Assembly (NCBI RefSeq): GCF_008704555.1
Contig: NZ_CP023702.1
Coordinates: 4,154,001-4,218,000, forward strand
Origin: Streptomyces nitrosporeus
Lineage (GTDB): Bacteria > Actinomycetota > Actinomycetes > Streptomycetales > Streptomycetaceae
Reading direction: 5' to 3'
Length of the DNA: 64,000 bases
The notes under the pieces were generated by a model. The model worked only from the letters and a program-made list of their open reading frames with translations, was not told the origin of the DNA and searched no databases. The first letter of the stretch is position 1. Each line of letters begins with the position of its first letter. Both the position numbers and the translations under genes were made by a program. Below are positions 42,453-64,000 of the stretch, piece after piece.

Positions 42453-42470
42453 GTGCTCCTCCATGCGGGA

Positions 42471-42499
42471 GGCGCCCCGAGCGAGGTGCTCGGGGCGCC
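42471..42499 (-). terminator. Strong hairpin between xis and int
   Basis: Perfect 12-bp stem GGCGCCCCGAGC (42471-42482) / GCTCGGGGCGCC (42488-42499) with a 5-nt loop, placed between the excisionase stop and the integrase ribosome site. It could attenuate read-through from xis into int. Confidence 0.7.
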
Positions 42500-42517
42500 T
42501 TGGTGACGTGCTCGGAG

Positions 42518-42721
42518 TCAGTTGGGCAGCGGGGCGAGGTTGGCCACGTAGGCTTCGAGGTCGGTACGACGGATCCGACGTGTACGTCCCAACTTGATGT
42601 ACTTCAGGGCGCCTTCGGCCATCAGCTCGTAGACCGTGGAACGGCCGATGGCGAGTGCTTCGGCGACCTCTTCGGGCTTGTACAGGAGCCGGTCGACGGA
42701 AGCGGTAATCGCGATACTCAT
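42518..42721 (-). CDS. xis: Excisionase / MerR-like helix-turn-helix protein
   Basis: This 67-aa protein is of the AlpA/excisionase kind. LLYKPEEVAEALAIGRSTVY is the helix-turn-helix and GALKYIKLGRTRRIRRTDLE the wing. It should bind DNA near att and direct excision with the integrase. The ATG at 42721 follows AAAGGAG by 8 nt; an ATG nine codons upstream is possible. The octamer cluster starts just upstream of it. Confidence 0.88.
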   Translation of the reverse strand: MSIAITASVDRLLYKPEEVAEALAIGRSTVYELMAEGALKYIKLGRTRRIRRTDLEAYVANLAPLPN

Positions 42722-42782
42722 CCGGGCGTCTCCTTTGGGCTTGGGCATAGTCAGGGCTCGCGCCTGTCCGAGGTGCGGATTT

Positions 42783-42993
42783 CTGCGTCACCTGCGTCAT
42801 CTGCGTCACTCATCGCTTTGACATGCGGTTTTGTTGTGACGCAGCGCGGTGGGGGTGTGTCACCGGTGACGCAGACCTGCGTCATTGGGTGACGCAGGTG
42901 ACGCGGGGTGACGCAGGAATCGGCCGTCTGCGTCACCCGTCTTCCGGCAGGTCACCGGCCGTTTTCGGGGTGCGGGTGACGCAGGTGACGCAG
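42783..42993. repeat. Cluster of twelve TGACGCAG octamers in both orientations
   Basis: The octamer TGACGCAG or its complement CTGCGTCA occurs at 42783, 42792, 42801, 42837, 42867, 42877, 42890, 42899 (one mismatch), 42909, 42928, 42977 and 42986. Direct neighbours are spaced 9 bp, and some pairs form inverted repeats. This is far above chance in 211 bp. It is either a protein-binding array (excisionase or regulator) or an iteron-type origin of the element. Confidence 0.92.
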
Positions 42994-43007
42994 TGTCTTC
43001 CTACTTA

Positions 43008-43864
43008 GAAGTCATCTCATTTGGGCGACTCGGTAGTCTGTGAGCCATGGTGGGGATCGTTGAGCGGCTGGTGCCGGACGAGTTGTGGGCGTTGTTCCAG
43101 CGGGTGGTGCCGGAGGCGCCGTCGCGGCCGCAGGGTGGTGGTCGGCGTCGGTACGGCGACCGGGAAGTGCTGGCGGCGATCGTCTTCGTGGCCACGTCAG
43201 GTTGTACCTGGCAGCAGCTGCCTTCGGCGTCGTTCGGCCCGTCCGGAGCGACCGCCCACCGGCGGTTCTCGGAGTGGTCGAAGGCCAGGGTGTGGGCCAG
43301 GCTCCACCGCCTGGTCCTCGACGAACTCGGTGCCCGCGGCGAGCTTGACTGGTCAAGGTGCGCGATCGACTCGGTGAACATGCGAGCCCTGAAAAGAGGG
43401 ACCTGACAGGTCCGAATCCTGTCGACCGGGGCAAGTACGGCTCGAAGATCCACCTGATCACCGAACGGACCGGTCTGCCCATATCCGTCGGCATCTCCGG
43501 GGCCAACCTGCACGACAGCTAAGCCCTGATACCCCTCGTGAAGGGCATCCCGCCGATCCGCTCGCGCCGAGGCCGGCGACGGCGCAAGCCCGCCAAACTC
43601 CACGCCGACAAAGGATACGACTACGCCCACCTGCGGCGATGGCTACGCGAACGCGGCATCACCCACCGCATCGCACGCAAGGGAGTCGAGCCCTCCCAAC
43701 GGCTGGGCCGCCACCGCTGGACCGTGGAACGCACCATGGCCTGGCTCGCCGGCTGCCGCCGACTCCACCGACGCTACGAACACAAGGCCGACTACTTCCT
43801 CGCCTTCACCAGCATCGCCTGCACCCTCATCTGCTACCGCCGACTCGCCAAATGAGATGACTTC
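43008..43864. mobile_element. IS5-family insertion sequence, copy 1
   Basis: 857 bp with 15-bp perfect terminal inverted repeats GAAGTCATCTCATTT / AAATGAGATGACTTC and TTA target duplications at 43005-43007 and 43865-43867. Its transposase is broken. It interrupts the region downstream of the octamer array. Confidence 0.9.
43047..43855 (+). pseudogene. IS5-family transposase, frameshifted and with a stop codon
   Basis: The first frame (from 43047) carries DUF4096-type MVGIVERLVPDELWALFQRV and the first catalytic Asp in RCAIDSVNMRAL. It ends near 43406 at a run of A/G (CTGAAAAGAGGG) where these elements normally shift frame. The second frame continues with GPNPVDRGKYGSKIHLI and then hits a TAA between HDS and ALIPL at about 43520. 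It resumes through KLHADKGYDY and ends with the catalytic Glu in WTVERTMAWL. The stop makes it inactive unless suppressed. Confidence 0.88.
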
Positions 43865-43867
43865 TTA

Positions 43868-44732
43868 GACCGTGTCCTATGTGGTGATCCGGAGGAGTCG
43901 TTTGTAGCAGCAGAGTGCTGCGGCGAGGCCGAGGAAGGCCAGGTAGTTGCGGGGGTGGCGTTCGTAGCGGTGGTTGAGGCGGCGGTAGCCGGTCAGCCAG
44001 GACATGGTGCGCTCGATGACCCATCTGCGGCGTCCTAGCCGTTCGCTGGACTCGACTCCCTTGCGGGCGATACGGACCCCGATGTGCTTGCCCCATAGCC
44101 ATTTCCGCAGGTGAGGGACGTCGTACGCTTTGTCCGCATGTAGACGCTGGGGCTTGAAGTAGCGGCCGCGGTGGGGGTTGTGTCTCGTTTGGTGGCCCTC
44201 GATCATGGGCTTCAGGGCGAGGCTGTCGTGGGTGTTCGCCGCGGTGAGGCCGACGAGGAGGGGCAGTCCGTTCGCGTCCGACAGGACGTGCATCTTGGAG
44301 CCCGGCTTGCCCCTGTCCACGGGGCTCGGACCTGTGAGTTCGCCCCCTTTTTAGCCCTCACGTGGGCGGAGTCGAGGACTGCCCGGGAGAGGTCGAGGAG
44401 GCCGGCGTCGTCCAGGCGGTGCAGGATCTCCTCGTGGAGCCGACCCCAGACACCGGCTCTCGACCAGATGAGGAATCTGCGGTGGGCTGTCGACTTCGAT
44501 ATCCCGAAGCACGGCGGCAGGGCCCGCCAGGCGCATCCGCTGACCAGGACGTAGATGATCGCGGCGAACAGCGTCTCATCAGGCGTGTCCTGCGTCCCGC
44601 CGCCCTGCGGCCTCACCCTCGACGGCGGGATCAGCGGCTCCGCGATCTCCCACAGCCCGTCCGGAACAATCCAACTCCACGTACCCCGCCCCATACCGAG
44701 CCCAACGAGCAAAGCCCACATAGGACACGGTC
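43868..44732. mobile_element. IS5-family insertion sequence (IS427-like), copy 2
   Basis: 865 bp with terminal inverted repeats GACCGTGTCCTATGTGG / CCACATAGGACACGGTC and TTA duplications at 43865-43867 and 44733-44735. The left TTA is shared with the right end of the first IS, so this element landed exactly in the duplication made by its neighbour. A decayed relative is found at 49547-50389. Confidence 0.92.
43877..44694 (-). CDS. IS427-type transposase, two frames joined by programmed frameshift
   Basis: Frame 1 (44694 leftward) holds WEIAEPLIPPSRVRPQGGG and the first catalytic Asp in AVLDSAHVRAKKG. Frame 2 holds GSKMHVLSDANGLPLLVG, the second-Asp region KAYDVPHLRKW and the catalytic Glu in WVIERTMSWL. 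The junction is an AAAAAGGGGG slippery run at 44343-44352 (minus strand). This is the usual site of programmed frameshifting in this group, so the enzyme may be active. A GTG at 44721 is an alternative start. Confidence 0.88.
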
Positions 44733-44737
44733 TTAGG

Positions 44738-44793
44738 GAGTCAACTTGACTCGTACCGTCGCCACCTGACGGGGCATCTTCTACAATCTCGAC
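44738..44793 (+). promoter_or_regulatory. Promoter of the AlbA_2 gene: palindrome and leaderless -10
   Basis: The perfect palindrome GAGTCAACTTGACTC (44738-44752) lies 42 bases before the start codon. A TACAAT -10 hexamer (44782-44787) ends 6 bases before the ATG at 44794, so transcription should begin at or next to the start codon. There is no ribosome site. The palindrome may be an operator. Confidence 0.65.
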
Positions 44794-46407
44794 ATGGAGA
44801 GGCGGACCATCCCTGTATCAGACGCGCTGGACCTCATCGAGCGCGAGGAGTCGCACTTCTGGGATCACAAAAGTGCACAGAGTAAGGGCACGGTAGTCCA
44901 GAAAATTGCAGCCGGTCTCGCCAATGCGGATGGCGGAGAATTCATCGTTGGAATCGAAGACCGGGGAAAGCAGGCCATCGGCTTGGACAGGTGGCAAGGG
45001 TACAGCACAATTGAAGACGCAAACATTGTCCTAGAGGCGCTCGCCCGTGACATCCAGCCGCCGGTTCCGTATTCAATGGAATATCTTGTCATTCAAGGAC
45101 GCGAGCGCCAGGGTTTAGCATGCCTGGTCAATATTCGTAAAAGCGAGAGCGTCCATTATGCCGCTGACAAAAAAGTCTACGTGCGACGCGGAGCCGCCAC
45201 CCATTCGATCACAGGGCAGGCAGTTACAGACCTGAGCCTGGCAAAAGGTGCGCGCACTTACGAAGATCAGCTACTCGCAGACTACGATAAAGAAGATTTG
45301 GTAGTCGAAGATGAGCTTGCCTACTTCCTGAGGTCCTACAGCCCGTCGACACCGCCGGATATTTTCATCCGCAAGCAGCGCCTCATCGACAGGGAATCCG
45401 GCGCCGCGAAAGTATCCGCCGGAATTCTATACGCTGAATCGCCACCTGCGGTTGTACCGAAGCGTTGCGCGGTGAAGGTCGCACGGTACAACACCAGGGA
45501 GAAGGAACCTCGCAGGGAGCACCTGGCAGCCACCCCGGGCACCATTGAAGGGCCAGCGCGGGTCGTCATTGAAGAGACAATCGCTGCGGTCACGGCATTG
45601 ATCGAGTCAGTCTCTGTGCTTCAGCCGACCGGGGAAATGGCACCCGTAAAATATCCGCCCGAAGTTTTGAAGGAAATCATTGTAAACGCGGTAATTCATC
45701 GCGACTACAATATCTCCGATGACATCTTGGTGTACGTCTTCGACGACCGCGTCGAGGTGCGGAGTCCCGGATCACTGCCAGGAAGTATGACGCTTGACAC
45801 GCTTCTTCAGGATCGCTTTTCGCGAAACCCGACAATTGTGCGCCTGCTAAACAAGTACCCCGACCCGCCAAATAAGGACATCGGTGAAGGGCTGCGTACA
45901 GTCGTTGCGAAGATGGCTGAGGCTAGGTTGCAGTCACCCATTTTCACAATTGAAGGAAACTACTTCGTAGTGAACTTAGGGCACACGCCGCTGGCTCGGG
46001 CTCACGAGATCGTTATGGAGTACCTTGAGAACCATGACGAAATCACGAACTCCATCGGTCGGAGCCTTACGGGAATACACTCCGAGAACAGCATGAAGGA
46101 TGTTTTCTACGCCTTGCGTAAGGCGAATAAAATCGAGATGGTTCCCGGTAAGCGAGGTAACAAGTCTGCATGGCAAAAGGTGCAGCCAGTAGAAATGGCT
46201 GGCGATGCTGATGCCCCATCAGAGGTGGCATCAAGATCCAGTTCCGGTGTCACGGTCCAGCAGGCGGAGGCGTCAGGAGGAGCTGTCCGCAGGGCGCCGA
46301 AGAGGCTAAAGGAGCGCAAGAACACGACCGGCCCTGCCCGTAATCGGCCGTGTTCTTGCGGGAGCGGATTTAAGTACAAGAGATGCTGTGGCCGGACAGC
46401 GTCCTGA
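44794..46407 (+). CDS. AlbA_2 (Schlafen-type) - HATPase_c_4 - SEC-C protein
   Basis: This 537-aa protein has three parts. Residues about 10-135 are a Schlafen AlbA_2 domain (ESHFWDHKSAQSKG, then GLANADGGEFIVGIED). Residues about 285-400 are an HATPase_c_4 region with EIIVNAVIHRDYN and KDIGEGLRTVVAKM. The last 25 residues form a SEC-C zinc motif, RPCSCGSGFKYKRCC. Relatives with the first two parts are called ATP-dependent regulators and occur on mobile and defence islands; the SEC-C tail is unusual. Base composition is visibly AT-richer than all neighbours, and codons 108 and 395 are TTA, so translation should need the bldA tRNA. Probably leaderless. Confidence 0.82.
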   Translation: MERRTIPVSDALDLIEREESHFWDHKSAQSKGTVVQKIAAGLANADGGEFIVGIEDRGKQAIGLDRWQGYSTIEDANIVLEALARDIQPPVPYSMEYLVIQGRERQGLACLVNIRKSESVHYAADKKVYVRRGAATHSITGQAVTDLSLAKGARTYEDQLLADYDKEDLVVEDELAYFLRSYSPSTPPDIFIRKQRLIDRESGAAKVSAGILYAESPPAVVPKRCAVKVARYNTREKEPRREHLAATPGTIEGPARVVIEETIAAVTALIESVSVLQPTGEMAPVKYPPEVLKEIIVNAVIHRDYNISDDILVYVFDDRVEVRSPGSLPGSMTLDTLLQDRFSRNPTIVRLLNKYPDPPNKDIGEGLRTVVAKMAEARLQSPIFTIEGNYFVVNLGHTPLARAHEIVMEYLENHDEITNSIGRSLTGIHSENSMKDVFYALRKANKIEMVPGKRGNKSAWQKVQPVEMAGDADAPSEVASRSSSGVTVQQAEASGGAVRRAPKRLKERKNTTGPARNRPCSCGSGFKYKRCCGRTAS

Positions 46408-50725: not shown

Positions 50726-51712
50726 TCAGTTGGTGGTGTCGAGCTTCTCCCGCTGTTCCGGGGTCAGTTCGAGGTCGACCGCGGCGAGGTTCTCGTCCAG
50801 CTGGGCGGTCGACGAGGCGCCGACCAGGGGCAGTACGGGGATGTCGCCGCCCATCAGCCAGGACAGCACGACCTGGTTGACGGTGGCGCCGGTCTCCTCG
50901 GCGACCTCGCGCACCGCCTTCAGGCGGGGGTCCGTGCCCGCGTGCTCGAAGCCCGGGCCCAGCGGCTTGTCGTCGCGGACGTATCCGCCGGAGAGCAGCG
51001 GGGAGTAGGCGATCTGGGTGAGTGAGGGGTTCGCGCGTACGTAGCTCAGCAGGTCGCCGCTGACCAGGCCCTGGTTGCCGTCGGGCGAGCGCAGGCTCGG
51101 GGTGTCGGTGCGCTGGCGGAGGTAGCTGTGGTGGTGCTGGAGGACCTCGTAGCCGGGGACGCCGGCCGCCGCGGCCAGGCTCCGGGCGCGCTCCACACGC
51201 CAGGCCCAGTGGTTGCTCGCGCCCAGCAGTCCGGCGATGCCGTCGGCGACGATCTCGCCGAACGCCCCGACGGTCTCCTCCAGCGGGGTCTTCTCGTCCA
51301 TGACGTGTGCGTAGAGCAGGTGGATGCGCTCGATACCGAGACGCTCCCGGCTGCGTTCGGCGGACTCGCGGATCACCTTGGCGGAAAGGCCCTCGATGTC
51401 GAGGCTGAATCCGCTCGTGGGGGCGTTCGGGCGGGCGCCGAGTTTGGTCGCGATGGTGATCTCGTCACCGATTCCCCGGCTGCGGATCCAGCGGCCGAGG
51501 AGTTCCTCGCTTTCCCCGCCCTGGGTGCCGTTGACCCAGAAAGCGTAGTTGTTGGAGGTGTCGATGAAATTCCCGCCCGCCTCGACGAAACGGTCGAGAA
51601 CGGCGAACGATGTCGATTCGTCGGTCACCGTTCCGAAGAGCATCGAACCCAGGCTCACCACGCTCACCTCACGGCGGGTGGCGGGGTCGCTGCCGATGAC
51701 GCGGTACTTCAT
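50726..51712 (-). CDS. Aldo/keto reductase
   Basis: This 328-aa NAD(P)H-dependent carbonyl reductase has the catalytic tetrad visible: Asp and Tyr in FIDTSNNYAFW, Lys in ITIATKLGA and His in LLYAHVMDEK. The C-terminal cofactor site is IPVLPLVGASSTAQLDENL. An AGGA site lies 6 nt before the ATG at 51712. It is the last gene of a leftward set with thioesterase and P450 at the edge of the biosynthetic cluster. It could reduce a beta-keto or aldehyde intermediate, since the PKS module in the window has no ketoreductase; that link is inference. Confidence 0.9.
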   Translation of the reverse strand: MKYRVIGSDPATRREVSVVSLGSMLFGTVTDESTSFAVLDRFVEAGGNFIDTSNNYAFWVNGTQGGESEELLGRWIRSRGIGDEITIATKLGARPNAPTSGFSLDIEGLSAKVIRESAERSRERLGIERIHLLYAHVMDEKTPLEETVGAFGEIVADGIAGLLGASNHWAWRVERARSLAAAAGVPGYEVLQHHHSYLRQRTDTPSLRSPDGNQGLVSGDLLSYVRANPSLTQIAYSPLLSGGYVRDDKPLGPGFEHAGTDPRLKAVREVAEETGATVNQVVLSWLMGGDIPVLPLVGASSTAQLDENLAAVDLELTPEQREKLDTTN

Positions 51713-51761: not shown

Positions 51762-52535
51762 TTAATTCCGGGTGAGCAGTTCTTGATCGCCCGGGCCCAC
51801 GGTGGCGCCGATACTCTCCGCGAGGGCGTCGAAGTGCCTGGCCAGAAAGAAGTGGCCGCCGCTGAAGGTGTGCAGCTGGAAGCGGCCCGTGGTGTGGCGG
51901 GCCCACGCCTCGGCCTGGACGGTGTCCACCCGGGGGTCGGCGTCGCCGATGAAGGCGGTGACGGGGCAGCGGAGCGGGTCGGCCCCCTGGTAGCGGTACG
52001 TCTCCGTGGCGACGTAATCGCTCCGGACCGCCGGGAGGATGGCGGCCAGCAGCTCGGCGTTGTCCAGCATCCGCGACTCGGTGCCGCCCAGCAGCCGGAT
52101 GTCGGCGACCAGCTCCTCGTCGGTCGCGAGGTGGACCGAGCCCGGTGCGGGGATCGACGGCGCCCGGCGGCCGGAGACGAACAGGGCGGACGGCTCGGCG
52201 CCGTTCGCGCGCAGCCGGCAGGCCACCTCGAAGGCGAGGGTCGCGCCCATGCTGTGCCCGAAGAGCGCGAAGGGCACCCGGGTCCAGCCGGTGAGTTCGG
52301 CCGCAATGATGTCGGCCAGCTCGGTCATGCTCTCGATGCGGGGTTCGTTGAACCGCTCCTGACGGCCCGGGTACTGGACGGTCAGCATCTCGGTCCGGGG
52401 CGCCAGGAGGGTGGACAGCGGGAAGAAGTACGAGGCGTTGCCGCCGGCGTGCGGGAAGCAGAAGAGCCTGAGGGCGCCGTCGTCGGCGGTGTGGAAGCGG
52501 CGCAGCCACGGGGTGTCCGCAGGGGTCACGGGCAT
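51762..52535 (-). CDS. Type II thioesterase
   Basis: This 257-aa editing thioesterase has oxyanion region LFCFPHAGGNASYF, nucleophile in LFGHSMGATLAF, Asp in IGDADPRVD and His in FSGGHFFLARH. The family removes stalled or mis-primed acyl groups from carrier proteins of NRPS/PKS lines. It starts 8 nt after the P450 stop codon and is followed 49 nt later by the reductase gene, so the three form one leftward operon. Confidence 0.93.
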   Translation of the reverse strand: MPVTPADTPWLRRFHTADDGALRLFCFPHAGGNASYFFPLSTLLAPRTEMLTVQYPGRQERFNEPRIESMTELADIIAAELTGWTRVPFALFGHSMGATLAFEVACRLRANGAEPSALFVSGRRAPSIPAPGSVHLATDEELVADIRLLGGTESRMLDNAELLAAILPAVRSDYVATETYRYQGADPLRCPVTAFIGDADPRVDTVQAEAWARHTTGRFQLHTFSGGHFFLARHFDALAESIGATVGPGDQELLTRN

Positions 52536-52542
52536 CTGGGGC

Positions 52543-53808
52543 TCACTCCGGGCGGCGGACGCCGGCACCGGCGCGGGGCCGGGCCGTGAGGGGGACGCGC
52601 TTGTAGCCGGACACGAAGTTCGAGGCCAGGCGCTCGGGCTTGCCGGCCGGCTCGAACCGCTCGAAGCGGGAGAGGAGTTCCTCGAAGAGGATGCGCAGGG
52701 TGACCCGGGCGACACTGTGTCCGACGCAGTAGTGCGGGCCGATGCCGAAGGCGAGGTGCTTGTTGGGCTTGCGGCGGATGTCGAAGACCGTCGCGTCGGG
52801 GAAGGCGGACTCGTCCCGGTTGGCGGCCCCGAGCCAGACCACCGCCGCGTCACCCTCGCGGATCAGGGTGTTGCGTACCTCGACGTCGCGCGTCGCGTAG
52901 CGCAGGAAGTGGTTCACGGGGGAGGCCCAGCGCAGCGCCTCCTCGACGGCCGTCACGTTGACGTCCGGGTGCGCCGCCCAGTCCTCCAGCACCCCGCTGC
53001 CGATGAACTCCGCCATGACGTAGTTCGGTGAGTGGGGGGTGGTGACGTTGGCGCCGAGCAGCAGGCTGTAGCAGTTCGCCACGATCTCCCCGGAGTCCAT
53101 GTGGCGGCCCTCGAACTCGGTCGAGATCAGCACGCTCAGCAGGTCGTCACCGAGGTCGTTGCGGCGGAAGCGGACCAGGTCCTGGAAGTAGGCGAACAGC
53201 TCGCGGTGGGCCGACTCCAGGGTGGCCTCCTTGCCGCCGGGGTCCTGGTAGTCGGGGTCGTCCGCGGCGATGCAGACCGTGGTGAGCCGGCTCAGCCAGG
53301 GCCAGTCGGCCTTGGGTAACCCCATCATCGTGCCGGTCACCGACATCGGCATGGCCAGCATCGCCTCGGCGAAGTCGAAGGTGCCGCCGTCGCCGAGCGG
53401 GGCTATCAGCTCCAGGATCAGGGACCTGATCATGTCCTTCTGCCGCTCGACGGCCCGGATGGCCAGGGCCTTCTTGAGCCGGGTCTGCATCTCCGTGTGC
53501 CGGGGCGGGTCCGTGACGGCCAGCTGCTTGCCGCCGGCCGGGTCGTCCGTGCCGAGGAGGTCGAGCATGGTGCCGCGCTCCGAGGTGAAGAGCGAGGTCT
53601 CCCGCAGCACGAATTCGGCGTCGTCGAAGCCGACGATGTTCCAGAAACCGCGCTTCTCGTCCACCTCCTGACGGGTCAGCGTGGGCTGTGCCCGCATGCG
53701 GCTCCACACGGCGTGCGCGTCGCCACTGCTGTGGAGCAGCGGATCGACGAGGTCGGCCGTTCCCCGGTGTACAGGGCATCCGGAAATCGCGGCATCGTGG
53801 ACTTTCAA
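52543..53808 (-). CDS. Cytochrome P450, cluster-associated, I-helix acid replaced
   Basis: This 421-aa P450 has the heme-ligand Cys in AFGIGPHYCVGHSVAR, the ExxR motif in EEALRWASPV and NRDESAFPDATVFDI before the heme loop, so the fold is complete. The I-helix reads LLLGANVTTPH: Val stands where P450s usually have the acidic residue of (A/G)Gx(D/E)TT. Proton delivery may differ, or the enzyme may do unusual chemistry. It is first in the leftward operon, divergent from the NRPS genes across a 348-nt promoter region. Likely oxidises the peptide product or a carrier-bound residue. Confidence 0.92.
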   Translation of the reverse strand: MKVHDAAISGCPVHRGTADLVDPLLHSSGDAHAVWSRMRAQPTLTRQEVDEKRGFWNIVGFDDAEFVLRETSLFTSERGTMLDLLGTDDPAGGKQLAVTDPPRHTEMQTRLKKALAIRAVERQKDMIRSLILELIAPLGDGGTFDFAEAMLAMPMSVTGTMMGLPKADWPWLSRLTTVCIAADDPDYQDPGGKEATLESAHRELFAYFQDLVRFRRNDLGDDLLSVLISTEFEGRHMDSGEIVANCYSLLLGANVTTPHSPNYVMAEFIGSGVLEDWAAHPDVNVTAVEEALRWASPVNHFLRYATRDVEVRNTLIREGDAAVVWLGAANRDESAFPDATVFDIRRKPNKHLAFGIGPHYCVGHSVARVTLRILFEELLSRFERFEPAGKPERLASNFVSGYKRVPLTARPRAGAGVRRPE

Positions 53809-54156: not shown

Positions 54157-55812
54157 TTGCTGTCCGATCCGTTAGTGGAAGAGCCTTCCTGGTATCCGGC
54201 CACCAGGATGCAGCAGGGTTTATGGGTGCTGGACCGCGATGAATTACTGAAGCCCACCCAACTGGTGCCCTCGGTCATCGAGTTCACCGGGCCGGTGGAC
54301 CACCCGGTCCTGGTGGACGCGGTACGCCGGGCCCTCGGCAGGCACCCCTCGCTGCGGGCGAGGTTCCGGCTCGACGTGAAACGCCGCCGGGTCGAATACA
54401 GCACCCACGGGGCGCCGGCCGACGCAGGCTTCCTCGACGCGGCGGCCGAGGGCTGGACCGCGGCCGAAGTCGACCGGCTGGTCAGCGCCTTGTGCAGCAC
54501 CCCGTTCGACCTCGCCACCGAGGCACCCGCGCGGGCCGAGGTGATCCGGCTGGACACCGAACGCACCCTCCTCGTCCTCACCTCGCACCACATCGTCTTC
54601 GACGGCCTGTCCCGCACGATGCTGCTCGAGGAGATATTCACCCTCTACCGGGCCGCGCTGGCCGGCGTGGAGCCGGAGCTGAGCAGTCCGCCGCACCCCG
54701 CCTCGGTGGTCGCGGAGCCCTCCGAAGAGGAGACGGCCGCCCAGGTCCAGGAGGTGGTCGAGCGGCTGCGCGGCGCTCCCACCGGTGTACACCTCCCCTT
54801 CGTACGCGCCTCCGAGGAAACGTCACTGGTCGGGGCCTCCGCCGCCACCCGCCTCGACCCGGGAACGACCGCGAAGGTCCTGGCCGTGGCGGCCCAGGAG
54901 GGCTGCACCACCTTCATGCTCGGGGTCGCGCTGCTGGCCGCCGCCCTGGCCCGCGGCAGCACCCAGCGGGACTTCCTCATCGCCTTCGCCTGGCCGGGCC
55001 GCGACCGGCCCGAGGCCGCCGACGTGATCGGCATGTTCATCACGACGGTGGTGCTGCGGGTCTCCCTCGACGGATCCACCACCTGGCGCGAGCTGCTGCG
55101 CAACGCACGGACCGGCAGCATGGAGGCGTTCATGGACAGCGATGTGCCGCTGGACGCCATATCCGCCGAGCTCAACCCGAAGCGCAACGCGCTCTGGCCG
55201 CCGCTGACCCCGGTGCTCCTCAATCTGGACGACGCGCCGCACACCCCCGAACTGGCCCCCGGCACGACCGGCCGGCTGCGGCCGCTCGACCCCCTGTACA
55301 TCAAGTACGACCTCGCGGTGTTCGTCCGCGTCGAGGAGAGCACCGAAGGACGGCGACTGGAGCTGTCCCTGGACCACCCGGTCGACATCACCGACCCCTC
55401 AGCCGTCCCGGCCTTCCTGTCGGATCTGCGGCGCAGCGCCGTGGACCTTGCCACTTCACCGGAGGAACCCGTGCTCGAACAGCCCGTCCACGCGATCGAC
55501 CTGGACGATCCCGCCGAGCGGCTCGACCTCGTGCGGTCCATCTGGCAGGAGGTGCTGGAGACCGACGAGGTGGACGACGACGTCAGCTTCTTCGAGTCGG
55601 GCGGCGACTCCCTGCTGCTCGTCGTGCTGGTGGAGAAGCTGAGCCAGGCTTCCGGGCGCATGCTGCGCACCGTCGACCTGTTCCGTTCGGCCACCGTGAG
55701 CGGCCAGGCCGACCTCCTGGCGGCCCCCGCCGAGGTTCCGGCACCCGCCGGCGGCGCCGGCGCGCTCGACGCCGCCCGCCACCGCCGCACGGCCGGCGAG
55801 GCCGCCCGATGA
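54157..55812 (+). CDS. NRPS: condensation domain plus carrier protein, no adenylation domain
   Basis: In this 551-aa protein residues about 10-430 are a condensation domain with SHHIVFDG (active HHxxxDG). Residues about 450-525 are a peptidyl carrier protein with the phosphopantetheine Ser485 in ESGGDSLLL. With no adenylation domain, the carrier must be loaded in trans by an enzyme outside the window. The TTG start has GGGGGA 6 nt upstream. Codons 6, 22 and 30 are all TTA, a strong sign of bldA control. The next NRPS gene overlaps its stop codon (ATGA). Confidence 0.92.
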   Translation: MLSDPLVEEPSWYPATRMQQGLWVLDRDELLKPTQLVPSVIEFTGPVDHPVLVDAVRRALGRHPSLRARFRLDVKRRRVEYSTHGAPADAGFLDAAAEGWTAAEVDRLVSALCSTPFDLATEAPARAEVIRLDTERTLLVLTSHHIVFDGLSRTMLLEEIFTLYRAALAGVEPELSSPPHPASVVAEPSEEETAAQVQEVVERLRGAPTGVHLPFVRASEETSLVGASAATRLDPGTTAKVLAVAAQEGCTTFMLGVALLAAALARGSTQRDFLIAFAWPGRDRPEAADVIGMFITTVVLRVSLDGSTTWRELLRNARTGSMEAFMDSDVPLDAISAELNPKRNALWPPLTPVLLNLDDAPHTPELAPGTTGRLRPLDPLYIKYDLAVFVRVEESTEGRRLELSLDHPVDITDPSAVPAFLSDLRRSAVDLATSPEEPVLEQPVHAIDLDDPAERLDLVRSIWQEVLETDEVDDDVSFFESGGDSLLLVVLVEKLSQASGRMLRTVDLFRSATVSGQADLLAAPAEVPAPAGGAGALDAARHRRTAGEAAR

Positions 55813-58800
55813 CACCCGACGATCTCGCCGTCTCCGTCCTCGGCGAGGAGACCGGCCCGGCGGGCTTCGCGACGGAGAGCTTCCTCGCCCTGGGCGGGGA
55901 CTCGCTGCGCGCCATGCGCCTGGCGGCACTGCTGCGCGAGCGGCTGGGCCTGGGCGTCGCGGTGAAGGCGCTCCTGGGGGCGGAGCCCCTGGCCAGGGTG
56001 CTCGACGGCGCGCGGCCCGTGGAGCGGACCGACACCGGTGCCGGGGAAGCCGGCGCCGACGACGCCTCCCTCTCACCGGCGCAGCGCGGGATGTGGCTCA
56101 TCGAGCGGGTGGCCGGAGGTTCCCCGTACAACCTGGTCTTCCGCTGTGCGGCCGAGGACGCCCGGCTGGACCCCAAGGCGCTCGCCGAGTCCCTGGCCCG
56201 GACCGCCGCCCGCCACGAAGGGCTGCGCACCGTCTTCCGGGAGACCGACGAGGACGCCGTGCGCGAGGTGCTGCCCGCCCACGTGCCCCGGCTGGAGACG
56301 TTCCCGTACGACGGCCCGGCGGACGGTTTCGAGGAGTACGTCGGCCGTGAGTCGGCGGCCTCGGCACGGGAGCCGTTCGTGCTGTCGGCCGCGCCCGCCT
56401 ACCGCTTCCTGCACTTCACCCGCCCGCGGGGCGGCGACGCCGTCGTCCTGGTGGCGCACCACATGGTGCTGGACGGCTGGGCGGTGGGGCTGCTGCTCAA
56501 GGAGGTCTTCGCCCGTTACGGAGCGCTCGTCCAGGGGGCCCCCGAGCCGGACCTCGGCCCGGACGTGCCGGTGCGGGTGCTGTCCGGCCGGCAGCGGGCG
56601 CTGCGGGAGGCCGGGGTGTGGGACAGCCAGGCCGCGTTCTGGGAGAAGCACCTCGACCGGGTGCCCTCGGTGATCGAACTGCCCGCCGACCGGCAGCGCC
56701 CCGCGGTCCAGGACGCCGCGGGCGCCCGTACGGCTCTGGACCTGGGGGCCGAGGTGACCGGGGCGGTGGCGGCGCGGGCCCGGGAGCTGGGCATCACCCC
56801 GTTCGCCTTCCTGCTCGGCGCCTTCGGCCTGACGGTCGGCCGCCGGACGGGCGCGGGCCGGCTGCTCGTCGGGGTGCCCCTGCTCGGCCGGGACTCCCAT
56901 GAGCTGGAGCACCTGGTCGCGGTGTCCGGGAACCTCGTGCCGGTACGCGTGGACGTGGACGACGAGGCGAGCGCCTCGGCCTATCTGCGCTCCGTGCACG
57001 CCTCGCTGGGGCAGAGCATCGACGCGGGCGACCTGCCCTTCGAGGAACTGGTCTCCCGCCTCGGCACCGAACGCAGCCTCGGCTGCCACCCCCTCGTCCA
57101 GGTCTGCTTCGGCATGCACGACCAGCTGGTCCCGCCCGTCGTGGACGCCGGCCCCGTGCGGCTGCGGGTCGAGGAGGGGCACGGCGGGGGGTCGCAGTTC
57201 GACCTGACGATGCTGATCGGCCGGGCCGAGCCCTCGTTCGCCGGGCACGTGGAGTACGCGACGGGGGTCTGGACCGAGGAGGAGACCGGCGCGTTCGTCG
57301 CCGACTTCCGGGCCGCCGTGGAACAGCTCGCGACCGGCCCGGACGTCCCGCTGGAGGAGGTGCGCTGTGTCTCCGAGGCCGGCCGGGCCCGGCTCGACGA
57401 GATCAACAGCGGTGTCCAGGACCTGCCCGCCACCTCCCTCGACGCGCTGTTCCGCGCGACGGCCGCGCGCACCCCGGACGCCGTCGCCGTACGCGACGAG
57501 TCGGCCGAACTCACCTACGCGCAGCTGGCGGAGGCCGCCGCCGAGCAGGCGCGCCTGCTCATCGAGGCGGGTGTCCGGCCGGGCGACCGGGTGCTGGTGG
57601 GGGTGGAGCGGTCGGTCGCCGAGGCCGTGGCCGTACTGGGTGTGCAGTGGGCGGGTGCCGCGTACGTCGGTGTGGAACCGGGGGACGCGGACGCCCATCT
57701 GACGAGGATCGTCAGGCGCGCGGAACCGGCCGCGGCGCTGGCCGGACCGGTCGGGGGACCCGCCGCGAACAGGATCGGGTCGCTGGGCGTCACACCGGTG
57801 CCCACCTGGGAACCGTCCTGGGCGGACGCCGGAGCGCCCCGGGCCGCCGGGCCGGTGGCGGGGGAGGACCCGGCACGCCTGGCCTATGTCGCGTTCACCT
57901 CGGGATCGACCGGTGAGCCCAAGGGCGTCGCCGTCCCCCACCGGGCGGTGCTCCGGCTGGTGCACGAGGCCGGTTACGTGCGCCTCGGGCCGGGCGAGCG
58001 GATGCTGCGGCTGTCGCCGCTGGCCTTCGACGCCTCCACGCTGGAACTGTGGGGCGCCCTGCTGACCGGGGCCACCCTGGAGGTGCACCCGCCCGGGCCG
58101 GCGTCGCCCACCGAGCTCGGCACCTTCCTGCGCGAGCGCGAGGTCACGGTCGCCTGGCTGACCGCCGGACTGTTCCGGCTGGTCGAGGAGTTCGCCCCCG
58201 ACTCGTTCGCCGGGATGCGGCAGCTGCTGACGGGCGGTGACGTGGTGCCCCACGAGCACGTGGCCCGCGCGCTCGCCCGCCACCCCGGTCTGGTGATCAC
58301 CAACGGCTACGGGCCGACGGAGAACACCACCTTCACCGCCACCCACACGGTGCGGCGGCCCGAGGAGGCCGACGGCCCGCTCCCGATCGGCCGGCCCGTG
58401 CCGGGCACCCGGGTGTACGTGCTCGACGAGCGCCACCGGACCGTGCCGCCGGGAGCGGTGGGGGAGCTGTACGCCGGCGGGGCCGGGCTGGCCGACGGCT
58501 ACCTCGGTGACGAGAAGGAGACGGCGCGCTCCTTCGGGGAGTTCTCACCCGATGTGCCCGAACGCCTCTACCGGACGGGCGACGTCGTACGGATCGACGG
58601 CCAGGGGCGGCTGCGTTTCCTGGGCCGCGCCGACGACCAGGTAAAACTCCGCGGCTACCGGGTCGAACTCGGTGCCGTCGCGGACGCCCTGACCTCACAT
58701 CCGGAGGTCCGGGACGCCGTGGTGAGCGTCACGGACGGCGGCGGCGCGGACAAGCGGCTGGTGGCCGCGGTGGTCCTGGCCGACGGCGCCCGGATCGACG

Positions 58801-59249
58801 CGGCAGGGCTGCGCGCCCTGCTGCGGGAGCGCCTCCCGGCCTACATGGTGCCGGCCCTGTGGGCCGTGGTGGACCGGCTGCCGGTGACGGCCAACGGCAA
58901 GGTCGACCGGCGGGCCCTCGCGGCGCTCGCGGTGCCGGCCGGGCGGGCGTCGTCCGCGGCTCCCGCCGGCGCGGACCCGGGGGAGGCCGCCCCCGATCTC
59001 ACGGGGCAGATCATGGAGTTGTTCGCCGAGTCCGTCGAGAGCGACGAACCGGTCACCGGGATCACGGCCGACACCGACTTCTTCATGGTGGGCGGGAACT
59101 CCCTGGGGGCGGTCCGGCTCATGCGCAGGCTCAAGAGCCGGCTGGGAGTGGGCGTGCGCCTGCGTGACTTCCTGCTCTCCCCGACCCCGGACGGTCTGCG
59201 GGTGCTCGTGGAGAAGGCCGCCGGCGCCGGGAAGGCCGCCGGCCGGTGA
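55809..59249 (+). CDS. NRPS: PCP-C-A-PCP, predicted aliphatic (Val-like) specificity
   Basis: In this 1146-aa protein the N-terminal carrier (Ser32 in LALGGDSLRAM) is followed by condensation (VAHHMVLDGW), adenylation (AFTSGSTGEPKG, NGYGPTENTTF, YRTGDVVR, NGKVDRRAL) and a second carrier (Ser1098 in VGGNSLGAV). Reading the ten pocket positions against GrsA by eye gives D-A-L-W-L-G-G-T-F-K, close to codes known for valine and related aliphatic residues; the alignment is manual. With the preceding protein this places two carriers in tandem across a protein junction. Its stop overlaps the P450 start (GTGA). Confidence 0.93.
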   Translation: MTPDDLAVSVLGEETGPAGFATESFLALGGDSLRAMRLAALLRERLGLGVAVKALLGAEPLARVLDGARPVERTDTGAGEAGADDASLSPAQRGMWLIERVAGGSPYNLVFRCAAEDARLDPKALAESLARTAARHEGLRTVFRETDEDAVREVLPAHVPRLETFPYDGPADGFEEYVGRESAASAREPFVLSAAPAYRFLHFTRPRGGDAVVLVAHHMVLDGWAVGLLLKEVFARYGALVQGAPEPDLGPDVPVRVLSGRQRALREAGVWDSQAAFWEKHLDRVPSVIELPADRQRPAVQDAAGARTALDLGAEVTGAVAARARELGITPFAFLLGAFGLTVGRRTGAGRLLVGVPLLGRDSHELEHLVAVSGNLVPVRVDVDDEASASAYLRSVHASLGQSIDAGDLPFEELVSRLGTERSLGCHPLVQVCFGMHDQLVPPVVDAGPVRLRVEEGHGGGSQFDLTMLIGRAEPSFAGHVEYATGVWTEEETGAFVADFRAAVEQLATGPDVPLEEVRCVSEAGRARLDEINSGVQDLPATSLDALFRATAARTPDAVAVRDESAELTYAQLAEAAAEQARLLIEAGVRPGDRVLVGVERSVAEAVAVLGVQWAGAAYVGVEPGDADAHLTRIVRRAEPAAALAGPVGGPAANRIGSLGVTPVPTWEPSWADAGAPRAAGPVAGEDPARLAYVAFTSGSTGEPKGVAVPHRAVLRLVHEAGYVRLGPGERMLRLSPLAFDASTLELWGALLTGATLEVHPPGPASPTELGTFLREREVTVAWLTAGLFRLVEEFAPDSFAGMRQLLTGGDVVPHEHVARALARHPGLVITNGYGPTENTTFTATHTVRRPEEADGPLPIGRPVPGTRVYVLDERHRTVPPGAVGELYAGGAGLADGYLGDEKETARSFGEFSPDVPERLYRTGDVVRIDGQGRLRFLGRADDQVKLRGYRVELGAVADALTSHPEVRDAVVSVTDGGGADKRLVAAVVLADGARIDAAGLRALLRERLPAYMVPALWAVVDRLPVTANGKVDRRALAALAVPAGRASSAAPAGADPGEAAPDLTGQIMELFAESVESDEPVTGITADTDFFMVGGNSLGAVRLMRRLKSRLGVGVRLRDFLLSPTPDGLRVLVEKAAGAGKAAGR

Positions 59250-60484
59250 ACCGTACGCAGCCGGCCGCGGTGCCTCTGGTGATCCCGGAAGGCGCGGCGC
59301 CCCCCGAGTGGGACGACGGACTGGACTGCTGGGTCGTCGCGGATCCGCGACTGGCCCGGCAGGTCCTCAACCACCCCGGCTTCGCCTCCGGGACCTTCGA
59401 GCGCTCCTTCCAGCTGTACATGACGGACACGGCACGGGCGGAGTACCACGAGCTCACCGAGTTCCTGCGGCTCTGGTTCGTCCAGACCGACGCCCCCGAG
59501 CACACGGAACTGCGCAGGCCGGTGCAGCGGATGTTCTCCGCCTCCTACGTCCGCTCCCTGGCCGGGCGGGTGGAGGAGATCGTCGACGAGTGCCTCGACG
59601 CGCTCGCCGCGGCCCGGCCGCACGACGTGGTGCCGACGGTCGCCGACGGGATCTCCGGCACGGTCATGGCCCACGTGGTCGGTGTCGACGAGCGTCCCGA
59701 GACGCTGCACCGCTGGTCGCGGATGCTGTCGTTGTTCATCGGCGCGATGTACCGGCAGGACTACGCCAGGGACGCGCACCGGGCCATGACGGAGATGGCC
59801 GACGCGCTCTCCCGGGCCTCGGCCCCCGCGGCCTTCCCCCGGGACACCCCGCGGGACCGGGCCCGTACGACCGCGACCTGGGCGATGAACCTCTTCGGCG
59901 GCCTGGAGACGACGGCGTCGCTGCTGGGGTCGGTGGTGCTGACCGCGCTGGGCGACCGGGACGTGTGGGACGCGGTCCGGGAGGAGCGGGAGGGCGCGGT
60001 GGAGGCGCTCGTGGAACGGGTGCTCGTCACCCGGCCGCCGCTGCGGCACCTGGGGCGTGTGGTCGCCTACGACCAGGAGGTGGCCGGAGCCCGCCTGGAG
60101 GAGGGCGACCTGGTGATGGTCAGCCTCACCGGGCAGGGGCTGCTCGCCGACCCGGACGCCGGGGACGGCCCGGACGCCGGGAGCGGCCCGGTCCCGGGGA
60201 GCGGTCCGGCCGCAGGGCCCTCCGGCGGGTGCCCGGTCACGGGGCCGGCCGGCCGGCCGGAACAGCACCTCGTCTTCGGGTACGGGCCGCACTACTGCGT
60301 CGGCGCACCGCTCGCCCGGCTGGAGGCGGCGGTGCTCCTGCGCCGCTTCGCACAGCGGTTCCCGGACGCCCGGCTCGCCCCCGAGGCCGCCGAGTGGGGC
60401 CCCAACCTGTCGTACGTCGGACTCGACCACCTGTACGTCGACCTGGGGACGGCCGCCGCCGGTCCCCGGACCGGAGGAGTGTGA
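59246..60484 (+). CDS. Cytochrome P450 with degenerate K-helix and low-complexity meander
   Basis: In this 412-aa protein the heme loop is intact (FGYGPHYCVGAPLAR, Cys351), and so is the I-helix (FGGLETTAS). But the K-helix, aligned through RPPLRHLGRVV to the usual PPxxxxxRxA, reads VERVLVT where VEELLRY is expected, so both Glu and Arg of ExxR seem replaced. The stretch before the heme loop, normally ANRDPxxFxxPDxFDxxR, is a Gly/Pro/Asp-rich run of about 40 residues. It may be a non-canonical P450 or a structural partner of the NRPS. It sits between NRPS and PKS genes, coupled by GTGA on both sides. Confidence 0.9.
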   Translation: MNRTQPAAVPLVIPEGAAPPEWDDGLDCWVVADPRLARQVLNHPGFASGTFERSFQLYMTDTARAEYHELTEFLRLWFVQTDAPEHTELRRPVQRMFSASYVRSLAGRVEEIVDECLDALAAARPHDVVPTVADGISGTVMAHVVGVDERPETLHRWSRMLSLFIGAMYRQDYARDAHRAMTEMADALSRASAPAAFPRDTPRDRARTTATWAMNLFGGLETTASLLGSVVLTALGDRDVWDAVREEREGAVEALVERVLVTRPPLRHLGRVVAYDQEVAGARLEEGDLVMVSLTGQGLLADPDAGDGPDAGSGPVPGSGPAAGPSGGCPVTGPAGRPEQHLVFGYGPHYCVGAPLARLEAAVLLRRFAQRFPDARLAPEAAEWGPNLSYVGLDHLYVDLGTAAAGPRTGGV

Positions 60485-63400
60485 CCGTGCCGACGGAGAA
60501 CGCGGTGGCCGTGGTGGGCATGGCCTGCAGGCTGCCCGGCGCCGACGACGTGCCCGCCTACTGGGCCGCGCTCACGGGCGGGGTGGACGGGATCACCCGG
60601 TTCGACCCCGAGTGGCTGCTGGCCGAGGGGGCCGACCCGGCCTATGTGCGCCGGGAGAACTTCGTCCCGGCCATGGGGGTCATCACCGGCTCGCGCCGGT
60701 TCGACCGGGCGTTCTTCAGGTACAGCAGGGCCGAGGCCGCGGCGATGGACCCGCAGCAGCGGGTCTTCCTCGAATGCGCCTCGACGGCCGTGGACGACGC
60801 GGCCATCGACCCGTCCCGCTTCCCGGGCCGGATCGGGGTGTACGCGGGAGCCGACCGGGTCGGCCACCACGCCGACGAGGAGCAGGGCGAACTCGCCCGC
60901 TACATAGGCCAGGAGAAGGACTTCCTCGCGACACGCGTCGCCTACCGGCTGGGGCTGCGGGGCCCCGCCCTCACCGTCCAGACGGCCTGCTCGACCTCGT
61001 TGACGGCGGTGCACCTGGCCGCGCGCGCCCTGGTCGGGGGCGAGTGCGACGCGGCACTGGCCGGCGGTGTCACCGTGATGCCGGAAGGGGAGTGGGGCTA
61101 CCTCTTCGAGCAGGGCGGCATCCTGTCGCCGGACGGGCGCTGCCGGCCCTTCGACGCCCGTGCGGCGGGCACCGTGCCCAGCGAGGGCGTCGCCGTCGTC
61201 GTGCTCAGACGTCTCGCGGACGCGCTGCGCGACGGCGACCGGATCGCCGCGGTGATCACCGGTACGGCGGTCAACAACGACGGCTCGGACAAGATGGCGT
61301 ACACCGCGCCGTCCGCCGCCGGCCAGAGCGAGGTGATCCGCGCCGCCCAGCGGATCGCCGGCGTCGACCCGGCGGACATCGACTACGTCGAGGCGCACGG
61401 CACGGCGACCCGGCTCGGCGACCCGGTCGAGGTGCAGGCCCTGGCCGAGGCGTTCGGGACCGTGGGCCGGGACGGCGGCCCCTGCCTGCTCGGTGCGGTC
61501 AAGGGGAACATCGGGCACACCGGTGTGGTCTCCGGTGTCGCCGGGCTGATCAAGACCGTACTGATGCTGGAGCGCGGGCAGCTGGTGCCCACCGCCCACT
61601 TCACCAGCCCCAACCCGCTGCTGGAGCTGGAGGATTCGCCGTTCCGGATCGCCGACGCCAACGCGCCCTGGCCGGAGCGCGGAACCCGGCTGGCGGCGGT
61701 CAGCTCCTTCGGGGTGGGCGGTACCAACGCCCATGTGGTGCTCCAGGGCGCGCCCAGCCACGTACCGCGCACGGTACGCGGGGGTCCCCGCCCGCTGGCC
61801 CTGTCGGCGGCCACCCCCGAGGCGCTCGGGCGGCTGGCCGGGGCGCTCGCCGACCGGCTCGACCCGGACGGCGGCGGCGCTGAACAGCCCCCGACGCTCG
61901 CCGGGACGGCCCGGACCCTCGCCGCACGGCGGGTCCACCGGCACCGCCGGATGCTGGTGGCCTCGGACCCGGCCCAGGCCGCCCGGCTGCTGCGCGGTGT
62001 GCAGGAGGGAGCGGACACCGCGCCGGACACCGGTGGCGGGGCGGGTTCCGGGGGCAGGACGGCGGCCGCACCACCGCGGAAGCTGGGCAAGGCCGCCTTC
62101 CTCTTCCCGGGGCAGGGCACCCTGCGGCACGGCGCGGGCGCCGCGGCGTACCGGCTGCTGCCCGGGTTCCGGGCGGCGTTCGACGAGATCGCCCGGACCG
62201 TCCGGGACACGCACGGCATCGACCTGGCGCCCGTGGTCACGGACGCCGGGACCGGCACTGGGACCGGTACCGACCAGGCGCCCGACGCCTCCGGCACCGG
62301 AGCCGGCACGGGTGCCGGGGACTGGTTCGCGGACACCGTGCATCAGCAACTCGGCCTGTTCGCCCTGGGATACGCCTTCGGCCGTCAGCTGGAGGCGTGG
62401 AACGTCCGCCCCGCCGCGATGCTCGGCAACAGCGTCGGTGAGTACGCCGCCGCGGCCCTCGCCGGGGTCTGGTCCCCGGCGGACGCCGCGGAGCTGGTGT
62501 TCCGGCGCGCCCGCGCGATGTGGGACACCGAACCGGGCCGCATGGTGAGCGTCAGGGCCTCCGCCGCGGAGGTCCTGTCCCGGCTGCCGGCCGGCTGCGA
62601 GGCCACCGTCGCCGTGGACGGTCCGGGCTCCGTCGTCCTGTCCGGTCCCGAGAAGGCCATGGACGACCTGCTCGCCGGGGACCCGTTCGCGGGACTCCGG
62701 ACCACGCCGGTCCACACCCGGCGCGCCTTCCACACGAAGGCCATGGAACAGGCCGCCGAGGCGGTGCGGGCGACCCTGTCGTCGGTGCCCGCCCGCCCGC
62801 CACGGCGGCCGCTGATCTCCGACACCACCGGCACCTGGGCCGATCCGCAGGAGGTGGCGGGCCCGGACTACTGGGCCGCCCAGCTGCGCCGGCCGGTCCT
62901 CCTCGGCGCGGCGATGGAGACCCTGCTCGGCTCGGGCTGCACCACCTACGTCGAGCTGGGGCCCGGGAGTTCGATGATCGCGGGCCTGCGTTCCAGCCCC
63001 GGCTGGAACAGCGCCCACCAGACGGTCCGGCTCACCTCCGGCCCGGACGAAACCGGGGACGCCGCCCTGCTGGCGGCCCTCGCCGCCTTGTGGGAACTGG
63101 GTGCGGACCGTGTCCTGGCGGACGTACCGGATGTGCTGGACGTGCTGGACGCGGCGGACCCGCGGCACGGCGAGGAGCGGGTGCCACGCTGTTCCCTGCC
63201 CGCCCACCCGTTCCTCGGCGAGGACCTGCGGAGGCGGGGGCGGGGGCGGCGGACGGACGCCACGGGCCCGGCGGCCCCCGCGGAACGGGCCGTGGCACCG
63301 GCGCCGGACCCCGTCACCGCACCGGCCGCGGCAGCACGTCCCGCACCGGCCGCGGCAGTACCTCCAGCACCGGCCGCGACGGTGCGCCCCGTGCTGGCGG

Positions 63401-64000
63401 AACTCTGGTGCCGCACCCTCGGCGTTGACGGGGTACGGGACGACGACGACTTCTTCGCCCTGGGCGGGGAGTCGCTCCTGGCCGTCACCCTGACGGCCAG
63501 GATCCGCGAGCGCACCGGCTGCGCCCTCTCCGTCACGGACTTCTCCCGGGCGCCGTCCTTCGGCGACCTGGTCGGTGAGGTGGAGCGGCACCTGCCCGCG
63601 CCCTCGGCCACGCCGCCCGCCGGAGCGGTGTCCGCCTCCCGGGGCGTCCCGGGCGTCGCCGTCCTCGGCGACGGCGGTACGGGGCGGCCGGTGTTCCTGG
63701 CCGCCGACGCGACGGGTACCGCACTTCCCTACCGGACCCTGGCCGGCCTGCTGGAGAACGCCGGAGGCCGCCCGGTCCTGGGGCTGGAGGACACCGGGGG
63801 CCCGCGGCCGCGCACGGTCGAGGCCGTCGCGGCCGGCCATGTCCGCGCACTGCTCCGCGCCCAGCCCGAGGGGCCTTACACAATCGGCGGCTGGTCCTAC
63901 GGGGCCGTCGTCGCCCACGAGATGGCGCGGCAGCTCGCCCGGCGGGGCGAGCGGGTGGACCTGCTCGTCTGCCTGGACGGTTTCGTCCCGGACACCGGAG
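60481..64000 (+). CDS. Type I PKS: KS-AT-ACP-TE, runs off the right edge
   Basis: 1173 codons are present. KS residues 10-430 have Cys170 (QTACSTS), His306 (EAHGTAT) and His346 (KGNIGH). The AT has FLFPGQGT, Ser651 in GNSVGEY (His of GHSxG is Asn) and RAFHTKAM, closer to the malonyl HAFH than the methylmalonyl YASH motif. No ketoreductase or dehydratase lies before the ACP (Ser998 in LGGESLL). A thioesterase follows with Ser1139 in GGWSYGA. The GTG start overlaps the P450 stop. It should add one unreduced C2 unit to the NRPS chain and then release it. The C-terminus is outside the window. Confidence 0.93.
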   Translation, partial: MTVPTENAVAVVGMACRLPGADDVPAYWAALTGGVDGITRFDPEWLLAEGADPAYVRRENFVPAMGVITGSRRFDRAFFRYSRAEAAAMDPQQRVFLECASTAVDDAAIDPSRFPGRIGVYAGADRVGHHADEEQGELARYIGQEKDFLATRVAYRLGLRGPALTVQTACSTSLTAVHLAARALVGGECDAALAGGVTVMPEGEWGYLFEQGGILSPDGRCRPFDARAAGTVPSEGVAVVVLRRLADALRDGDRIAAVITGTAVNNDGSDKMAYTAPSAAGQSEVIRAAQRIAGVDPADIDYVEAHGTATRLGDPVEVQALAEAFGTVGRDGGPCLLGAVKGNIGHTGVVSGVAGLIKTVLMLERGQLVPTAHFTSPNPLLELEDSPFRIADANAPWPERGTRLAAVSSFGVGGTNAHVVLQGAPSHVPRTVRGGPRPLALSAATPEALGRLAGALADRLDPDGGGAEQPPTLAGTARTLAARRVHRHRRMLVASDPAQAARLLRGVQEGADTAPDTGGGAGSGGRTAAAPPRKLGKAAFLFPGQGTLRHGAGAAAYRLLPGFRAAFDEIARTVRDTHGIDLAPVVTDAGTGTGTGTDQAPDASGTGAGTGAGDWFADTVHQQLGLFALGYAFGRQLEAWNVRPAAMLGNSVGEYAAAALAGVWSPADAAELVFRRARAMWDTEPGRMVSVRASAAEVLSRLPAGCEATVAVDGPGSVVLSGPEKAMDDLLAGDPFAGLRTTPVHTRRAFHTKAMEQAAEAVRATLSSVPARPPRRPLISDTTGTWADPQEVAGPDYWAAQLRRPVLLGAAMETLLGSGCTTYVELGPGSSMIAGLRSSPGWNSAHQTVRLTSGPDETGDAALLAALAALWELGADRVLADVPDVLDVLDAADPRHGEERVPRCSLPAHPFLGEDLRRRGRGRRTDATGPAAPAERAVAPAPDPVTAPAAAARPAPAAAVPPAPAATVRPVLAELWCRTLGVDGVRDDDDFFALGGESLLAVTLTARIRERTGCALSVTDFSRAPSFGDLVGEVERHLPAPSATPPAGAVSASRGVPGVAVLGDGGTGRPVFLAADATGTALPYRTLAGLLENAGGRPVLGLEDTGGPRPRTVEAVAAGHVRALLRAQPEGPYTIGGWSYGAVVAHEMARQLARRGERVDLLVCLDGFVPDTG

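Follow-up and report, generated by a model that had tools for sequence, protein, structure and literature searches.

The window analysed here is a stretch of 64,000 nucleotides (positions 4154001–4218000) of the Streptomyces nitrosporeus genome, a single contig of 7.58 Mb, and at its right end it carries a combined non-ribosomal peptide synthetase (NRPS) and polyketide synthase (PKS) assembly line. Domain calls on the cluster proteins, made with Pfam, gave the order C-PCP, PCP-C-A-PCP, P450 and KS-AT-ACP-TE (C, condensation; PCP, peptidyl carrier protein; A, adenylation; KS, ketosynthase; AT, acyltransferase; ACP, acyl carrier protein; TE, thioesterase), which is the order that a first-pass annotation had read from the sequence. 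The assembly-line genes overlap by 4 bases at their stop and start codons in an operon-like manner. We retrieved the right flank (L010) and extended the window coordinates rightward, L010:8905–11688 corresponding to 68905–71688 in the extended numbering. The resulting set comprises 12 genes (Table 1): an aldo/keto reductase (AKR), a type II thioesterase (TEII) and a P450 on the minus strand, and on the plus strand C-PCP, PCP-C-A(Val)-PCP, P450, KS-AT-ACP-TE, a major facilitator superfamily (MFS) transporter, a further P450, a second TEII, a short-chain dehydrogenase/reductase (SDR) and A(Thr)-PCP. Because the open reading frames beyond the interval from AKR to A-PCP are not common to the other loci compared, differing except between close genome pairs, the cluster was delimited to 50726 to ~71688 of the window. 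Judged by its sequence, the NRPS-PKS line is the core of a bounded, self-contained 12-gene cluster of the antibiotic type of ~21 kb.

Table 1. Features of the S. nitrosporeus cluster in window coordinates, extended rightward where marked.
Feature	Position	Strand	Basis or motif
AKR, aldo/keto reductase (PF00248), left cluster end	50726..51712	-	Pfam
Type II thioesterase, Ser nucleophile	51762..52535	-	GHSMG
Cytochrome P450-a	52543..53808	-	Pfam
NRPS-1: C-PCP, without A domain	54157..55812	+	Pfam Condensation and PP-binding
NRPS-2: PCP-C-A-PCP	55809..59249	+	Pfam PP-binding (two), Condensation, AMP-binding and its C-terminal domain
N-terminal PCP of NRPS-2, opposite the NRPS-1 PCP	55809..56069	+	LGGDSL
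Cytochrome P450-b, overlapping both neighbour genes	59246..60484	+	Pfam
PKS: KS-AT-ACP-TE	60481..64386 (window part 60481..64000)	+	Pfam ketoacyl-synt N and C, Acyl_transf_1, PP-binding, Thioesterase
MFS transporter	64383-65843 extended	+	
P450-c	65843-67150 extended (L010:5843-7150)	+	
Second type II TE	67158-67901 extended	+	
SDR	67892-68716 extended (L010:7892-8716)	+	
Decayed C-A(Thr)-PCP, 927 residues	68905-71688 extended (L010:8905-11688)	+	Pfam A and PCP

The carrier of NRPS-1 has no A domain in the window, as had been noted before and as the Pfam calls bear out. The A domain that it lacks lies 13 kb downstream, outside the window, on a separate protein that consists of ~355 residues without a Pfam match followed by A and PCP. 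A search to the right for a trans-acting A domain and tailoring genes had been suggested by the first-pass annotation, and it is there that the Thr A-PCP, P450-c, TEII and SDR were found; an A domain upstream, which would have spoken against loading in trans, gave way to one downstream on a protein of its own, as trans-loading predicts. The stand-alone A domain has the code DFWSVGMVH, identical to a published Thr code, in nine loci including S. nitrosporeus. Code positions were set by eye, by aligning motifs with the GrsA pattern, and then applied by script. The N-terminal region, aligned across eight members and modelled with AlphaFold2 (mean pLDDT 68), matched condensation domains in the PDB (best Foldseek E 5e-12, TM about 0.5), and at the HHxxxDG position it reads ADRARLD or similar, the motif being lost in the readable loci. 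The combination of a C-domain fold with a lost HHxxxDG identifies this region as a decayed C domain, and any functional C domain acting on Thr must therefore lie elsewhere.

NRPS-1, for which the TTG at 54157 is the first start in frame and the putative start codon, has a C domain with the active HHxxxDG motif and a PCP with GGDSL. A dehydrating function of this C domain was considered and is not favoured, since AmbE scores 49 bits against 118 bits for the PCP-C didomain 7kw2. Both C domains, of NRPS-1 and NRPS-2, retain HHxxxDG wherever the loci can be read, all carriers of the readable loci retain their Ser, and the N-terminal PCP of NRPS-2 reads LGGDSL throughout. NRPS-1 and NRPS-2 are separate proteins in the readable family members, and the two carriers that the first-pass annotation saw opposed across their junction are indeed both conserved, which implies that both are probably used. 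The A domain of NRPS-2 has the code DALWLGGTF in 10 of the 11 loci and DALWIGGTF in Kibdelosporangium, and these codes resemble published Val codes in all 11.

The PKS frame ends at 64386, 386 bases past the window edge, which therefore cuts the TE and leaves its His motif GDHW outside. Pfam found neither a ketoreductase (KR) nor a dehydratase (DH) in the PKS, and the earlier description of a single non-reducing module followed directly by a thioesterase holds once the TE is completed from the flank. Across the readable loci the KS keeps its Cys and both His, and the TE motifs of the family are GGWSxG and GDHW. The AT carries GNSVGE and AFH and is malonyl-like; the family pattern is GNSxGE with a GHSVGE variant in DSM 15324, and AFH occurs in every readable member except G195 (RAAH). 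In the KS tree the family forms a clade of its own. The next relatives by identity are the KS-AT-ACP-TE proteins of G036 and G163 (60%).

A search with the C-PCP protein and follow-up retrieval yielded ten further loci, eleven in total. The complete set occurs in seven other genomes: S. papulosa NRRL B-16504 (G273 is apparently the same record), Streptomyces sp. GC420, S. dysideae RV15, Streptomyces sp. DSM 15324, G042, G479 and Kibdelosporangium aridum, the last with AKR on the other strand and a shorter decayed C region. Since the set is complete in seven other genomes with its catalytic motifs retained, it is not a chance assembly. Degraded or partial copies are found in three more genomes. 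G411 has all genes in many frameshifted pieces, probably owing to an assembly problem, while G477 (L067/L068) holds a broken copy with a frameshifted left half and no right half; it has no stand-alone A domain, and the A code read there is that of its NRPS-2. AKR, SDR, P450-b and the second TEII are missing from G195, where the A domain nearby is a different one (40% identity, code DVRHVGVVD). The A-PCP and the A-less C-PCP are kept together in the seven complete loci and in the frameshifted G411. Within the genus sample, a close C-PCP homologue was present in 4 of 392 other Streptomyces genomes. Two further Streptomyces loci (L023:9039-19322 and L025:3760-15824) contain an A-less C-PCP, 42–48% identical to NRPS-1, between a C-A-PCP and a KS protein; the KS protein of L023 is a KS-ACP-reductase. 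At L025 there are a luciferase-like oxygenase, a stand-alone A domain and an AT on its own.

Among the tailoring enzymes, AKR is present in 10 of the 11 loci (all but G195) with 68–90% identity, which supports the involvement that the first-pass annotation had suggested for it and makes it a candidate beta-ketone reductase. The SDR comes nearest to TIGR03971, the family of mycofactocin-coupled SDRs, with 279 bits, below the cut-off of 300, and no mycofactocin radical SAM gene scores above its cut-off in this genome. P450-a shows 69–88% identity across the family. Its nearest solved relatives, 4l0e and CYP125MRCA, tie at 227 bits; a role as carrier-bound amino acid hydroxylase of the P450sky kind, to which we take 4l0e to belong, was considered and set aside because of this tie. 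The closest solved P450 to P450-c is CxnD, which forms the C-S bond in chuangxinmycin (453 bits, next 296). P450-b departs from a motif usually regarded as invariant: EXXR is absent in 9 of 9 orthologues, where the site reads VE[RST]VL[VQR]xRPPL, the meander is absent and a variable linker replaces the region after the EXXR site. The FGxGPHYCxG haem loop and the FGGLETT I-helix are retained. Loss of EXXR has a precedent in CYP157 (PMC3599690).

From the domain order, the intact motifs, the substrate codes, the conservation and the cluster limits, we propose, with a probability of about 0.6, that the A-less C-PCP/PCP pair receives Thr in trans, that this Thr is likely N-acylated, and that Val and one malonyl unit are added before TE release. 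The stand-alone protein, with its decayed C domain, would activate Thr and transfer it in trans to NRPS-1 or to the carrier at the N-terminus of NRPS-2. N-acylation of Thr with a starter, either an acyl-CoA or another carrier-bound acyl group, would most likely fall to the C domain of NRPS-1; of the two facing carriers, one would be the acceptor and the other would act as donor in the following step. NRPS-2 would then join Val, the PKS would add one malonyl unit without reduction and the TE would release the chain. Reduction of the beta-ketone may be the task of the discrete SDR and AKR, and the P450s may oxidise the chain while it is carrier-bound or free. As the flank comparison ends the cluster at AKR and A-PCP, the set offers no other A domain to serve the carrier. 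Of the chemistry put forward by the first-pass annotation, the trans-loaded unit (the Thr A-PCP), the Val-like residue (the code) and the single malonyl-type unit (AFH) stood, while release as a free beta-keto acid, aminoketone, tetramate or statine is one set of candidate outcomes, to which the discrete SDR, P450-c and the second TEII beyond the window edge add further options.

Several points weigh against this proposal. It may be that the Thr A domain loads no carrier but its own PCP and forms a first module with Thr as donor, the Val A domain loading another amino acid on NRPS-1, and no dedicated starter gene (acyl-CoA ligase or FAAL) belongs to the conserved set. Both TEII proteins have Ser, versus the Cys that we take to be typical of a SyrC-type shuttle. 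G195, finally, keeps the line with a different A domain and without SDR, AKR and P450-b. The bolder version, in which the facing carriers form an obligatory two-protein relay, Thr being acylated on one and passed on, with the EXXR-less P450-b acting between NRPS and PKS in a new class of small Thr-Val-ketides, seems improbable to us.

Loading of Thr in trans has published precedents. In syringomycin biosynthesis SyrB1 supplies Thr to the A-less C-T of SyrE; in WS9326A biosynthesis of Streptomyces calvus Cal22Thr works with the A-less C-PCP of Cal19, as tested by gene disruption and enzyme assay; and in ramoplanin and enduracidin biosynthesis stand-alone A-T proteins with a ~300-residue N-terminal extension complement an inactive module in trans (PMC8949500, PMC7539972). 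The S. nitrosporeus cluster resembles the first two in its stand-alone Thr A-PCP and A-less C-PCP, whose motifs are intact and which are conserved together, whereas in those systems the A-less module stands late in a long peptide line. With ramoplanin and enduracidin, whose products are long lipodepsipeptides, it shares, as a likeness of architecture, a stand-alone A-T protein with a long N-terminal extension. SyrB2 chlorinates the Thr on SyrB1, and SyrC moves it; among the 12 genes of the present cluster Pfam matched no non-haem halogenase, and no aminoacyl shuttle with a Cys nucleophile, as SyrC presumably is, was seen, both TEII proteins carrying Ser (GHSMG and GHSLG). Another partial parallel is pepstatin, with PepH (C-PCP-C), PepG (A, predicted Thr), PepB and PepC (KS-AT-ACP), where a trans-acting enzyme reduces the beta-ketone (PMC12081711). 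Shared are the A-less C-PCP, the discrete Thr-predicted A domain and a PKS module that lacks KR and follows a branched amino acid. Pepstatin differs in the F420H2 reductase PepI and in iterative use, in place of which the present cluster has three P450s, a TE fused to the PKS, AKR and SDR; Bac_luciferase (PF00296), the family to which we assume PepI belongs, had no Pfam match in the 12 genes.

Rather unlikely, and the strongest of the alternatives, is that Thr-PCP is a loading module and that NRPS-1, through its C domain, links Thr to another amino acid loaded in trans on the NRPS-1 carrier, followed by Val and malonyl, to give a tripeptidyl beta-keto product whose N-terminus is free. Two active C domains together with an inactive C that precedes the Thr A domain, an arrangement seen in starter modules, agree with this, as does the fact that an acyl-activating gene was not found in the cluster. 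However, the cluster has only two A domains, so one of them must load twice, and the known systems of Thr A-T and A-less C-T place Thr on the A-less module. We consider it doubtful that a Thr-Val-malonyl dipeptidyl beta-keto acid decarboxylates and cyclises to a 5-methyl pyrazinone as in coralinone. CorA (A-T-C-A-T-KS-AT-ACP-TE) forms such a pyrazinone after decarboxylation, and CorA-PKS alone converts a dipeptidyl-SNAC into it (PMC10979478). Both systems use two amino acids and one KS-AT-ACP-TE round, but coralinone has its A domains in cis. A separate Thr A domain and three C domains, two active and one decayed, place the present cluster outside the cor-like type (two A, at most one C, one KS, AT and TE), three P450s, SDR and AKR exceed the coralinone route, and a free Thr amine would be required.

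There is likewise little likelihood of an antimycin-like release, in which the discrete SDR would reduce the Thr-Val-malonyl chain and the TE would close the Thr hydroxyl onto the PKS carboxyl to a nine-membered lactone-lactam. The order of starter, Thr, second unit, KS-AT-ACP-TE and discrete ketoreductase is the same in antimycin (AntC/AntD/AntM), which uses a macrolactonising TE (PMC3869250), and the SDR is a putative ketoreductase here. Yet antimycin has a pyruvate module with KR where we find a Val code and no KR; the KS shares only about 50% identity with the KS of G264, an unconfirmed antimycin-type candidate, and falls outside it in the tree; and the conserved set holds none of the 3-formamidosalicylate starter genes that mark the antimycin type. 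Trp dioxygenase was discarded as a marker of antimycin clusters, being nearly ubiquitous in Streptomyces. An epoxyketone cluster was set aside because an acyl-CoA dehydrogenase, a trait of that family, was not among the Pfam matches.

If Thr is loaded in trans as proposed, reduction of the beta-ketone to a statine-like acid is the most likely single fate, since AKR and SDR are conserved, although at somewhat less than even odds. A Thr-O lactone like that of antimycin is less likely, and the same holds for a decarboxylated ketone or pyrazinone and for any other outcome.

Outside the cluster, a phage-type integrase, transposase-like open reading frames (by eye) and an AlbA_2/Schlafen-type protein lie to its left (window 41046-46407) and together suggest a mobile neighbourhood. 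To the right, L010:14475-15347 encodes an intradiol-dioxygenase-like protein with a CBM_5_12 module, adjoining an alpha-lytic-protease-like gene with the same module.

In conclusion, the product is probably a new small natural product of the Thr-Val-ketide kind. No matching published cluster was found in a search of the open-access literature, with MIBiG and most subscription papers lying outside it. The parts are known, and their combination and product are new to that literature. Being compact, clearly bounded and present at varied genomic sites in Streptomyces and Kibdelosporangium, the cluster can be expressed whole. It could serve as a minimal system for Thr loading in trans, for carrier-to-carrier transfer across a protein junction and for trans-acting reduction of a beta-ketone.
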